Assembly (NCBI GenBank): GCA_019638595.1
Contig: JAHBTJ010000007.1
Coordinates: 165,674 to 229,673 of the forward strand
Source of the DNA: Chitinophagaceae bacterium
GTDB taxonomy: Bacteria > Bacteroidota > Bacteroidia > Chitinophagales > Chitinophagaceae
Direction of reading: 5' to 3'
DNA: 64,000 nucleotides
The notes beneath the pieces were generated by a model. That model made no database searches, had not been told where the DNA came from, and saw only the letters and a list, made by a program, of their open reading frames with translations. The translations under genes and the position numbers were made by a program. Positions 6,432 through 10,787 of the stretch are shown here, in pieces; the stretch's first letter is position 1, and the number at the start of each line of letters is the position of its first letter.

Positions 6432-8396
6432 TTACATATTACGCCGGTATTGCCCGCCTGCTTCGTATAAGGCCTGTGTTATTTGCCCAAGCGAACAATA
6501 TTTAACCGTATTCATCAGTTCGGCAAAAACATTCCCGTTTTGCGCAGCAACTTCCTTTAACGATTGTAAAGCCTCCCTGCTTTTAGCTGCATTTACTTTT
6601 TGAAATTGTAATACATTATTTATCTGTTGTTCTTTTTCTGCCTGTGTACTGCGTATTACCTGCTCTGGAATAATTACCGGGCTTCCTTTACTGCTTAAAA
6701 AAGTGTTTACACCTATTATAGGAAGCTCACCCGTATGTTTCAGATGTTCGTAGTGCAGGCTTTCTTCCTGTATTTTGTTGCGCTGGTACATTCTTTCCAT
6801 AGCTCCTAAAACACCGCCCCGGTCGGCAATCCGGTCAAACTCCTTTAATACGGCTTCTTCCACCAGGTCGGTCAATTCCTCCATAGCAAAAGAACCCTGT
6901 ATAAAATTTTCCGTTTTAGCTGTACCCAGCTCCCGGTTTATAATAAGCTGTATTGCCATTGCTCTTCGCACACTTTCTTCGGTAGGGGTAGTAATGGCTT
7001 CATCGTATGCATTGGTATGTAAAGAATTGCAGTTATCGTAAATGGCGTATAATGCCTGCAGGGTGGTGCGTATGTCGTTAAAGTCAATTTCCTGGGCGTG
7101 CAGGCTGCGCCCGCTTGTTTGTATATGATATTTCAGCTTTTGAGAACGTTCATTGCCATTGTACCTGTATTTCATCGCTTTGGCCCATATGCGCCTGGCA
7201 ACCCGGCCAATTACACTGTACTCCGGGTCCATGCCATTACTGAAAAAGAAAGAAAGATTAGGTGCGAAATCATCGATATGCATTCCGCGGCTGAGGTAGT
7301 ATTCAACATACGTAAAACCATTTGCCAGCGTAAAAGCCAATTGTGTAACAGGATTAGCGCCTGCTTCTGCTATGTGATAGCCGCTGATGCTTACACTGTA
7401 AAAATTTCTTACTTTATTTTGGATGAAATATTCCTGTACATCACCCATTAATTTTAATGCGAACTCGGTAGAGAAAATACAGGTATTCTGCGCCTGGTCT
7501 TCTTTCAGGATATCTGCCTGCACCGTACCTCTTACCTGTTGCAACGCTGTGGCTTTCAGTTGCTCATATATACCCGGTGGCACAACTGTATCTCCGCTGA
7601 TGCCAAGTAAGGTAAGTCCCAGTTCATCATTACCTGCCGGTATAATGCCGGGAGATGCAGTATCGTTGTAAAACGGCAATTCATTACCGGAAAATTTTTC
7701 TCTTTTACGCGCTGATACTTTGTGTTCCTCTTTGTGTTCTTTTATCCATTTTTCGCATAGCTGGTCAATTGCGGCATTCATATAAAATGCCAGTATTATT
7801 GGAGCAGGTCCATTAATGGTCATGCTTACCGAGGTATATGGATCACAAAGATCAAATCCGCTGTAAAGTTTTTTAGCGTCATCCAGCGTAGCAATGCTTA
7901 CACCGGCATTGCCAATTTTGCCATAAATGTCGGGCCTGTAGGCAGGATCCTGTCCATACAGCGTAACACTATCAAAAGCGGTTGATAATCTTTTTGCCTG
8001 CTGCCCGGCAGATACATAATGAAAGCGTTTATTGGTTCTTTCGGGGCCTCCTTCTCCCGCGAACATTCTTGTTGGATCTTCTCCCTGCCGCTTCAGCTCA
8101 AAAACACCGGCAGTATACGGAAATGAGCCGGGTACATTTTCCTGCAATTGCCAGCGCAGGATATCACCCCAATCATTGTATGCAGGCAAAACCACTTTTT
8201 TAATGGAAGTGCCGCTCAGCGATGTTGTTGTCATATTCTGCCTGATGACTTTACCTCGTACGGTATATTCAAATACTTCCTTTCCATATTTTTCCTGCAG
8301 GTCTTTCCATTCGCTCAGCAGCTTTTGCAGCTCCGGATCTAATTTGTTTTGCAGCGATGTGTATTTCTCTTCAAGTTCGGTATACAGCATGATCAT
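6432..8396 (-). CDS. icmF: Acyl-CoA mutase catalytic domain: 3' half of a split IcmF
   Basis: A 654-residue methylmalonyl-CoA-mutase-family TIM barrel. Visible blocks include [36 protein letters not shown] and [15 protein letters not shown]. It has no cobalamin-binding or GTPase domain; these lie on the separate gene at 9360-10787. Together they match the domain order of fused isobutyryl-CoA mutase (B12 domain, MeaB-type GTPase, linker, mutase), about 1,130 residues in sum. The enzyme interconverts isobutyryl-CoA and n-butyryl-CoA, or related acyl-CoAs. The ATG overlaps the stop codon of the DUF1016 gene (ATGA); a second ATG is two codons later. Whether the two polypeptides assemble is unknown. 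Confidence 0.85.
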
Positions 8397-9358
8397 TGTT
8401 TTTTAGTACGCCTGCCGCGTATTATTTTTTGAACTTCCTGCTGCAATTGCTTTGCAGAAGGAAGATTGTCTTTTAACGATTTGGGCAACGATTTAATATA
8501 TTGATATTCACTTACACCTATCGGATGATTAATATTTTGCAAATAAAGATGATAGAATAACAAATCCAGCTTTCTGAATTTTCCTCCTACCCGCATTTTG
8601 ATCTGCCTTCCTACAAAAGCGAATCCTGCACCTAATTCAATAAGGAATTCTTCAATGTGTTTTATGATCTGCTGTTCGAGCTCAAATTCCGTAATTTGTT
8701 CCCCGAGCTGGATAAAACCGAATTTGTAGGGGTCTTTTAATATCTGGTTGGCCAAATCGCTTTGGGCTTTCGGTAGTGTAAGATGAAAGTTGTTTACTTT
8801 TTTCGCTTTCTCCTGTCGTTGATATAAATCAGTATCTACCTGGTATTTTAAAACCGACCGGCTCCAGTTGTTTTCAATGGTTTTTTTTACATACCATATC
8901 CGTTGGTCATGGTCTTCTATCTTGTCCATCAGGTAAATGTGATGCCCCCATGGAATGCTTACCAGTTCTTCGTTGGTTATATGCCACAGCGTATTGCCAA
9001 ATTGCGCAGCAAGCTGCTGCGTAATTTGGTTTTTTCCTTTTTGTTGTATTTGCGCAGCAGCTTGCTGCGTAATTAAGAAATATGGATAAGCAACGGCAAA
9101 TTGCTTCATATACAGCAGGTTCCTTTCAGAAAATCCTTCAAGCTCAGGGAATGCCTTGTTGAGATCTCCGGACAAAGAAGATATAATTTTTGCTCCCCAG
9201 TTTTCAATGTCTATTTTTTGTTCAATCTGCTTGCCGATATACCAATACAATATTATCAGGTTCTTGTTTGCCTGCAGCGAAGTTTGCAGCCTTGATTGAT
9301 CTATGCTTTTTTTAAGTACAGCCAGCCATTGCTGGTACTGTTTGGCGGTGTTTTTCAT
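8393..9358 (-). CDS. DUF1016 / YhcG-family PDDEXK nuclease homologue with internally deleted catalytic domain
   Basis: A 321-residue protein. The N-terminal DUF1016_N part is intact ([48 protein letters not shown]). The C-terminal PDDEXK part begins normally ([11 protein letters not shown], then LDLLFYHL) but jumps directly to [12 protein letters not shown], the normal C-terminal element. About 60 residues that in full-length relatives carry the E-x-K catalytic residues are missing, with the frame kept (junction near 8530-8550). The gene lies 1 base after the icmF GTPase half and overlaps the mutase half by 4 bases. A 17-bp inverted repeat pair lies within it. A nuclease activity is doubtful; DNA or partner binding may survive. 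Confidence 0.85.
9002..9074 (-). repeat. Paired palindrome-like repeats inside the DUF1016 gene
   Basis: CGCAGCAAGCTGCTGCG (9005-9021) is the exact reverse complement of 9053-9069, giving a 17-bp perfect inverted repeat with a 31-base loop. The flanking TTG and TAATT are also shared in direct orientation, so 9002-9026 and 9050-9074 are near-identical 25-mers that differ only at the centre. They encode the two ITQQ(A/L)AAQ segments of the protein. Confidence 0.85.
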
Positions 9359-9359
9359 A

Positions 9360-10787
9360 TCATTTGTTTTTAAGTATTTCTATTGCGCCGTTAAGCTGGT
9401 ATAGTTGCGAAGCCGTTTTGCTTTGCTCTGTTGCCCAGTTATTATAGTCACGTACACATTTACTGATCTCACTTAAATATCTCACCCTGTCAGCCGGTAT
9501 AATAATTTCATTTTTTGGCGGTTGCTGTAATACATTATTAAATGCTTCAGCTTCGTCTATCCATGGTATCTGCAACCTGCTTTTTATTGTTTCCAGTAAT
9601 AATTGAAAAAGCCTGTTTACACCCGCGTCATTAAATTTGTTCGCGCACATATTGATAACCGGCAACTGTTCCGGTGCTGCTGAAAATAGCAGGTGGTTTC
9701 GTTTGTATTGCTTCCTCACATCATTCAAAGCATCATCCGCGCCTGGTTTATCTGCCTTGTTAATAGCAATAATATTGGCATAATCCAGCATGTTTATTTT
9801 CTCAAGCTGGGATGCCGCCCCATATTCCGGGGTCATTACATACATGCAGATATCGCTGTACCCGGTAATGCTTACGTCGCTTTGCCCTGTGCCTGCGGTT
9901 TCCAGTATAATACAATCGTAGCCTGCTTTTTTACAGATATCAATGGCTGCTTTTGCAGATTTACTTACTGACGCATTGTCTTCGCGTGTAGCCAACGATC
10001 GCATGTATACTCTTGGGTTTGATACTGCATTCATGCGGATGCGGTCGCCCAGTAAAGCGCCTCCCGTTTTTCTTTGGCTGGGATCAACAGCAATAACGGC
10101 TATTGTTCTTGCCGGAAAAACCTGCAGATACCTTCTGACCAATTCATCGGTAACCGAAGATTTACCTGCGCCACCGGTTCCTGTAATACCAATAACCGGA
10201 ATGATTGCTTCCTGCCTGGCGGGTTGCAGCTTTTCCAGCAGGTCATCGTATATGTCATCGCTTTCCGCCAGCGAAATAGCTCTTGCAACGACTCTTATAT
10301 CCTTTAGCTCACCCAGTGGTAATGCCGCATTCCATTTGCTAACAGCCTCATCATAATTGGCGGTATCTGCGCATTGGGCTATTACATCCTGTATCATTCC
10401 GTCCAGTCCCATTTTCCTTCCGTCGTCGGGACTGTAAATACGATTGATGCCATACTGGTGAAGCGTTTCCGCCTCATGTGGCAGGATAGTTCCACCGCCG
10501 CCGCCAAAAATTTTAATATGGCTGCATCCGCTTTCCTGCAGCAGGTCTTTCATGTACTTGAAAAATTCCATGTGACCACCCTGGTAACTGGTAACAGCTA
10601 CCGCGTGCGCGTCTTCTTCAATAGCGCATTCAACTATTTCGTGCACCGACCGGTCGTGACCCAGGTGTATCACCTCTGCTCCCTTTTGCTGCAACAGCCT
10701 CCTCATAATATTAATGGCGGCATCATGCCCGTCAAAAAGGCTGGCTGCTGTTACAATTCTTACCCGGGAAGCATTTTGTTTGTTCAT
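9360..10787 (-). CDS. icmF: Cobalamin-binding plus MeaB-type GTPase protein: 5' half of a split IcmF
   Basis: About 475 residues from MNKQNASRVRIVTAAS; an in-frame codon 20 residues upstream is less likely because relatives start near here. Residues about 5-140 form a B12-binding domain with the DRSVHE and GGGGTILPHE region; the usual DxHxxG box is represented by SLFDGHDA and HLGHDRSV. From about residue 190 follows a G-protein chaperone domain with P-loop GITGTGGAGKSS, AVDPSQRKTGGALLGDRIRMN, the ETAGTGQSD switch and NKAD. In IcmF this domain gates cofactor loading and repair. The polypeptide stops exactly where the linker to the mutase domain would begin; the mutase lies at 6432-8396, after an intervening DUF1016 gene. 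Confidence 0.85.
   Translation of the reverse strand: MNKQNASRVRIVTAASLFDGHDAAINIMRRLLQQKGAEVIHLGHDRSVHEIVECAIEEDAHAVAVTSYQGGHMEFFKYMKDLLQESGCSHIKIFGGGGGTILPHEAETLHQYGINRIYSPDDGRKMGLDGMIQDVIAQCADTANYDEAVSKWNAALPLGELKDIRVVARAISLAESDDIYDDLLEKLQPARQEAIIPVIGITGTGGAGKSSVTDELVRRYLQVFPARTIAVIAVDPSQRKTGGALLGDRIRMNAVSNPRVYMRSLATREDNASVSKSAKAAIDICKKAGYDCIILETAGTGQSDVSITGYSDICMYVMTPEYGAASQLEKINMLDYANIIAINKADKPGADDALNDVRKQYKRNHLLFSAAPEQLPVINMCANKFNDAGVNRLFQLLLETIKSRLQIPWIDEAEAFNNVLQQPPKNEIIIPADRVRYLSEISKCVRDYNNWATEQSKTASQLYQLNGAIEILKNK

Follow-up and report, generated by a model that had tools for sequence, protein, structure and literature searches.

The stretch of DNA analysed here (the window) comprises 64,000 nucleotides (nt) from a Chitinophagaceae bacterium of the Terrimonas group (assembly GCA_019638595.1, contig JAHBTJ010000007.1, positions 165,674 to 229,673). 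On its minus strand lie three coupled genes in which icmF, the gene for the B12-dependent isobutyryl-CoA mutase IcmF, is divided in two and a DUF1016 (YhcG-type) gene occupies the joint, referred to below as the slot (Table 1). A preliminary description of the sequence had read the B12/GTPase and mutase halves as separate genes in the correct order. This was confirmed by profile and structure-sequence matches, the N half corresponding to positions 2-466 of the fused IcmF model NF045497 (619 bits) and the C half matching the same model over two stretches (1095 bits), the best being 697-1076, with both halves alignable to the Cupriavidus IcmF structure sequences. Compared with fused IcmF (NF045497; Cupriavidus 4xc6), the order of B12-binding domain, MeaB-like GTPase and mutase domain is the same and the halves cover most of the chain, but the single polypeptide expected of IcmF is replaced by two, cut in the linker between the G-domain and the mutase domain. 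The placing of the DUF1016 gene at this linker, with a one-base gap on one side and an ATGA overlap on the other, was likewise borne out. A search of the window's genome found no second or fused copy of either half. The same three-gene arrangement was identified in 12 further genomes (one contig stops 127 residues into the second half, and one of the DUF1016 genes has a frame lesion close to its 3' end), so that the arrangement in the window is no chance product.

Table 1. Features of the split icmF locus (positions within the window; aa, amino acids).
Feature	Position	Strand	Size and remarks	Basis
IcmF N half: B12-binding domain and MeaB-like GTPase	9360-10787	-	475 aa, C-terminus GAIEILKNK-stop	domain/profile matches, structure-sequence alignment
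Spacer, N-half stop to DUF1016 start	9359	.	1 nt	
DUF1016 (YhcG-type) gene in the linker slot	8393-9358	-	321 aa, truncated PD-(D/E)XK domain	
Junction of 174-nt (58-codon) in-frame deletion	8542-8543	-	relative to sibling G394	
ATGA overlap, DUF1016 stop/mutase-half start	8393-8396	-		
IcmF C half: substrate-binding mutase domain	6432-8390	-	652 aa; 654 aa from ATG at 8396	

The split point and the gene in the slot

Two-subunit B12 mutases such as IcmA/IcmB and HcmA/HcmB resemble the window's enzyme in having substrate and B12 domains on separate chains, and a 2-hydroxyisobutyryl-CoA mutase structure was among the structure-sequence matches of both halves; in mutases of the IcmA/IcmB type, however, the G-protein is separate from the B12 subunit, unlike in the window's N half. 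In IcmF, the G-domain and the mutase domain are connected by a linker and the active site lies between the cobalamin (Cbl) and substrate domains (available text of PMC10481361), so that a split enzyme must assemble to work. The split falls 8-14 residues past the motif LYQL, at the end of the N tail, in 16 parsed split alleles, and the total distance from LYQL to VRxK is 54-60 residues in these alleles and 50-73 in 25 parsed fused ones (41 of 54 rows were parsable). The split neither removes nor duplicates residues, which answers the check for continuity with fused relatives that the preliminary description had proposed.

The gene in the slot matches DUF1016_N over the full profile (2-137 of 137) and the models of the PADLOC candidate PDC-S02 (best E 2.9e-92), a role in defence being a candidate one. 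The YhcG/DUF1016 family is common in this genome, as judged from eight more YhcG_C matches, one of them interrupted by a stop. The C-terminal domain typical of YhcG/DUF1016 proteins (PF17761 + PF06250; PDC-S02) is recognised in the window copy, but the YhcG_C match is confined to profile positions 2-71 of 157, a point overlooked in the preliminary description, and the (D/E)xK part is missing. The sibling genome G394 holds a full-length DUF1016 gene at the same site (379 aa), relative to which the window copy is 174 nt shorter, in frame; the 58-codon loss therefore postdates the separation of the two. By secondary-structure prediction for the sibling protein, which is of low confidence, the deletion takes the (D/E)xK motif and the remainder of the core, and a motif search found (D/E)xK in 12 of 12 other slot copies and none in the window copy. 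Its PD-(D/E)XK core is thus incomplete and, with the motif lost, the window protein is unlikely to be a working nuclease now.

Outside the deletion, the window and G394 DUF1016 genes share 97.5% identity, with 0.012 nonsynonymous (dN) and 0.32 synonymous (dS) substitutions per site and a dN/dS of about 0.04; for comparison, dS between the two genomes is 0.55 for the N and 0.67 for the C part of icmF and 0.40-1.98 for five neighbour genes. Taken as a guide to the age of the DUF1016 gene, dS gives a mixed signal. An AlphaFold model of the full-length sibling protein was poor (mean predicted local distance difference test score, pLDDT, 57.9), and a search of solved-structure profiles with DUF1016 gave a single unconvincing match (E 0.59). 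Two near-identical palindromic stretches were seen by eye within the window DUF1016 gene (8990-9080); they encode the repeat ITQQxAAQ on either side of a linker of variable length, and akin repeats are present in the aligned slot DUF1016 relatives.

Distribution of split icmF and of its cargo

The slot DUF1016 alignment and two peptide patterns were used to scan 84,980 species genomes; of the 39 loci obtained, 10 sit between icmF halves: three in the Terrimonas group, three in Ferruginibacter, Niabella drilacis, a second Niabella (a remnant) and two metagenome-assembled genomes (MAGs). Identity to the slot proteins was at least 54% at ten loci, nine of them at the slot and the tenth in G279, and at most 45% at 28 loci, which had no icmF match in their flanks (some of these being short). 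A search of the family added G237 (Niabella) and G055 (discussed below), and a search of the order extended the arrangement to a second family, f8, represented by G519 and G430 with a slot DUF1016 gene each. The slot gene is thus seen in the Terrimonas group, Niabella, Ferruginibacter, another lineage of the same family and a second family. In 14 checked genomes lacking a slot copy, no close relative of the slot protein was found elsewhere (best 46% identity), which fits a DUF1016 lineage bound to the icmF site. A slot-clade DUF1016 gene away from icmF was observed in G055 (L182, 6025-7242), whose icmF frame is fused.

Three censuses were made, of the genus, of Niabella and of family f8; frequencies outside them are not rates, since the genomes sampled were picked or ordered by their similarity to the window, and some of the assemblies used are drafts or MAGs. 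In the genus (Terrimonas group, 12 genomes including the window's), icmF is split with DUF1016 in four genomes (the window, G394, G239, G380), split without it in four (G336, G310, G359, G395), fused in two (G028 and G123, the latter allele clustering with Niabella alleles in the icmF trees) and without a match in two (G279, G396). Both halves are gone from G279, which retains a slot-clade DUF1016 gene at the same place, adjoining the usual neighbour gene of icmF. At the DNA level, 20 pairs being tried, a 3' DUF1016 trace was detected in the spacer of G310 (against G380, 0/500 shuffles) and a weaker one in that of G336 (against G239, 14/500 shuffles), so that the bare splits of these two genomes perhaps arose by DUF1016 decay.

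The 17 Niabella genomes include two with an intact slot gene (G237, G399), three with DUF1016 remnants (G404, G402 and G277, each 0/200 shuffles) and two with probable DNA-level scars of about 50 nt, comprising both gene ends in G379 and the 3' end in G358 (0-1/300 shuffles for the best-matching ends). Two more are bare splits considered below; the rest are fused (3/17), have broken or fragmentary frames (4/17) or lack an icmF match (1/17), and none of the 17 showed a sign of refusion. In Niabella, the cargo decays and icmF remains split, and the remnants and DNA scars point to insertion having preceded some of the bare splits. Decay would account for those of G379 and G358 and would leave those of G359, G395, G103, G397, G309 and G536 without explanation.

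In family f8 (30 genomes), icmF is fused in nine as judged by frame length and split in six where the region was read, two of these holding DUF1016, three other cargo and one none; the C half is alone at the locus in seven, and eight are unclassed (fragments, contig ends or no icmF-type match). Slot cargo other than DUF1016 comprises an AAA ATPase with a partner in G546 (matching HEC-02A, 3e-85, and HEC-02B, 3e-24), an AAA_15/AAA_21 ATPase with a small gene without match in G509, a 599-aa gene with a SWIM zinc finger in G494 and an AAA ATPase with a small gene without match in G433 (family f16). A 104-aa frame adjoining DUF1016 in the slot of G519 (L235, 2299-2613) resembles, on visual inspection, the beginning of an AAA ATPase gene; no Pfam match was obtained for it, and it hints at cargo succession. 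In all seven of the f8 genomes with the C half alone at the locus (G411, G442, G475, G483, G489, G539, G542), an open N half lies on a different contig from the C half. As both halves stay open on separate contigs, linkage is not needed, and these genomes are predicted to hold a natural unlinked split enzyme.

These data bear on the possibility that the DUF1016 protein is a functional partner which aids the assembly of the halves or regulates them and is retained for that. The tight coupling of the genes and the constrained codons outside the deletion would agree with such a role; many split alleles, however, are without DUF1016, other cargo takes the same position, G279 retains the gene without either half and the halves are on different contigs in seven genomes, which makes this the least probable of the explanations considered here. 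As a required partner, DUF1016 is ruled out by the bare splits, by G279 and by the unlinked halves.

The same censuses can be set against a model in which fission came first, the linker tolerating spontaneous fission and the tight joint later taking up passengers (DUF1016, AAA and others) passively through homologous recombination. Seven of the nine classed Niabella splits bear signs of DUF1016 (the gene itself, its remnant or a probable scar), and a single DUF1016 clade at a single site is unexpected for random passengers, although unrelated cargo in the same slot, the unlinked halves of f8 and the traceless bare splits (G103, G359, G395, G397, G309, and also G536, for which there is no trace test) are what such passengers and prior fission would lead one to expect. 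Fused near-relatives, moreover, adjoin loaded splits (G504/G430, G523/G509, G311/Ferr115), suggesting replacement in one step. On balance fission before cargo appears fairly unlikely.

A nuclease domain also occurs away from the slot: L053 (G030) and L218 (G383), the two parsable loci of five tried, each encode a fused IcmF in which a DUF559 nuclease domain (7.6e-32 and 7.9e-35) is inserted in frame at the other linker, the one joining the B12 and GTPase domains; several other IcmF frames of about 1270-1300 aa may likewise carry a DUF559-type insert.

Phylogeny of the slot gene and its host alleles

A DUF1016 tree was generated by careful search from 52 rows (50 distinct), 30 of the other rows being chosen by the author among fetched loci; it includes seven of the eight paralogues of the window's genome, the eighth having no usable frame. 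The 13 slot genes together with those of G279 and G055 formed one clade (100/100) against 37 other rows (35 distinct), with a long stem and deep internal branches. The hosts do not follow this pattern: the 66-row icmF tree showed 14 changes between fused and split states, and placing the 16 hosts of DUF1016 or its remnants in one clade was rejected in the approximately unbiased (AU) test (p=3.4e-24). In an earlier 58-row set, from which seven fused and two poor rows were excluded in the 66-row set, a single clade of the 23 split rows was also rejected (p=8.5e-78), as was one joining the Terrimonas and Niabella splits (p=0.0057). A clade of the eight Terrimonas splits alone was not rejected (p=0.57).

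The long stem and deep branches indicate an old DUF1016 clade, as would follow from one ancient split with DUF1016 in the ancestor of the family, the present fused alleles being later transfers from elsewhere. Such a history is nevertheless very improbable, given that the AU tests reject a single clade of split or of DUF1016-bearing alleles and that fused alleles group closely with split ones, both within genera and in family f8. Rather, a single nuclease lineage occupies one site in host alleles that are unrelated to each other, and relatives carry uninterrupted alleles, as expected of a free-standing homing endonuclease gene.

For other DUF1016 loci, the best 25 neighbourhood clusters (flanks of at most 6 kb, some contigs short) revealed a shared site in no case other than six Legionella-type loci, which have one downstream gene in common, and a few groups of two or three loci. 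A 2005 paper, in its available text, described YhcG as without an obvious conserved neighbourhood (PMC1189080); the slot clade differs in being bound to one host gene. The preliminary description had asked whether DUF1016 genes insert preferentially: one clade does, while other lineages show a common site in these best 25 clusters only for the few groups just named.

The linkers themselves were compared in 49 rows (both halves were available for 52 of 55 rows, and three more lacked the motif, including G003, the fused congener of G103), with origins grouped by the author from the tree and some margins small. Over the first 55 residues after LYQL, 21 of the 23 split alleles were nearer to a split allele of other origin than to the fused allele closest in body (exceptions, G336 and G395), and the same comparison on the body gave 0/23. 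Against the best of all fused linkers, the corresponding values were 19/23 for split alleles and 2/26 for fused controls. Between fused and split, 5 state changes were counted in the linker tree (58 columns) and 13 in the body tree. Specifically, G430 is 92-99% identical to its fused sister G504 in the body beyond residue 60 and only 11% and 58% identical in two linker parts, for which it shares 43% and 76% identity with the less related split allele G494. This pattern would be the expectation if short flanks were transferred together with the cargo, convergence of split linkers being the alternative.

Origin of the split and its meaning

The evidence is probably best explained by a mobile intervening cassette whose arrival splits icmF and which spreads through recombination, possibly with homing. 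The G-domain/mutase linker would serve as a recurrent docking slot, in which a DUF1016 nuclease gene of the site-specific clade enters a single-chain icmF and leaves it as a coupled gene pair that flanks the nuclease. With the Cbl domain on half 1, the substrate domain on half 2 and the active site located between these domains, the halves would then work in trans as a split enzyme. The cassette may move to fused alleles of other lineages through recombination in the flanking icmF, carrying short pieces of linker with it, and the nuclease may drive this spread by cutting uninterrupted linkers. By internal deletions such as that in the window, the cargo could then decay until a scar is left, or the slot could pass to another module of defence-like type, icmF staying split in either case.

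The insertion into a once-single gene put forward in the preliminary description is in this respect upheld by the fused congeners (G028, G123), by the lack of any gap or duplication and by the Niabella remnants and scars. It is not specific to this genome: the event is shared by congeners, other genera and a second family, and the joint holds other cargo too. A unique recent insertion in the window genome is ruled out by the same arrangement in congeners and other lineages. Relatives with separate halves and no DUF1016, named beforehand as a case that would speak against insertion, do occur, and decay explains some of them.

Several observations weigh against a mobile cassette of this kind. 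The fused allele of G028 stands beside the window and G394 (support 83-87), which may lie outside a single clade of Terrimonas splits; the icmF trees were quick, the groups for the AU tests were chosen after the first tree, and the constrained 66-row tree was 1480 log units worse, possibly reflecting a poor short search. Among fused controls, 10/26 also had a nearer split linker, so convergence is possible. No cargo trace was detectable in the spacer tests of G359, G395 and G103, nor in protein and DNA tests of two of the 17 Niabella genomes (G397, G309), and the slot of the split G536 is empty. With the spacers as delimited here, the traces in G336 and G310 were not seen at the protein level (23/200 and 151/200 shuffles as good) and neither were the scars of G379 and G358 (40/200 and 194/200); many end comparisons were made for the latter two and some failed, such as the G379 5' end against G399 (140/300). 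Lacking (D/E)xK, the window copy probably does not act as a homing nuclease now, although the codons that it retains appear to be under constraint, and in G239/G380 the DUF1016 gene is not younger than the N half by dS (0.94 vs 0.91). DUF1016 homing cannot account for the AAA and SWIM cargo. Finally, what the sequences themselves show is that the arrangement recurs, that its DUF1016 genes form one clade in scattered host alleles, that no residues are lost, that remnants exist, that split linkers resemble one another and that the window copy has lost its core motif; the cutting and transfer of the cassette are inferred and not directly observed, as are homing, the order of events in the Terrimonas group and the assembly and activity of the halves. 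DUF1016 may drive spread by cutting or may ride on ordinary recombination; as the slot also takes other cargo, recombination by itself may be able to use it.

Gene splitting by free-standing nucleases is known in phages. The closest precedent for a mobile cassette in icmF is probably that of Aeromonas phage Aeh1, whose nrdA is divided by mobE and still yields a functional enzyme; phage T4 has mobE in the interval from nrdA to nrdB, where the start of mobE overlaps the stop of nrdA (both from the available text of PMC2988022). As far as that text goes, the likeness is that of a nuclease gene within the gene of a metabolic enzyme, yielding two coding regions. The differences are that mobE is an HNH gene of phages, whereas the split icmF is found on bacterial chromosomes, in many lineages, with a PD-(D/E)XK DUF1016 gene and interchangeable cargo, the function of the split enzyme being here a prediction. 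No published report of a split icmF with cargo in the slot was found among the matches listed from the literature on DUF1016/YhcG, IcmF, homing and split genes. More tentatively, the proteins of the DUF1016 clade could be free-standing homing nucleases of a new class, directed at the chromosomal icmF linker, that have repeatedly made a lasting two-gene B12 enzyme, the joint having become a slot for the exchange of defence modules.

If a mobile cassette is indeed responsible, a chromosomal metabolic gene would have been split repeatedly at one joint, with the fused, invaded, decayed and probably scarred states all visible, and these genomes would form a natural series for the study of fission driven by a selfish gene and of the reassembly of a split enzyme. 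The halves of IcmF would be predicted to assemble in trans. DUF1016/YhcG, a common predicted nuclease family for which no known function was found, would gain a testable role, and the linkers of housekeeping enzymes may be a new kind of place in which to search for defence genes.

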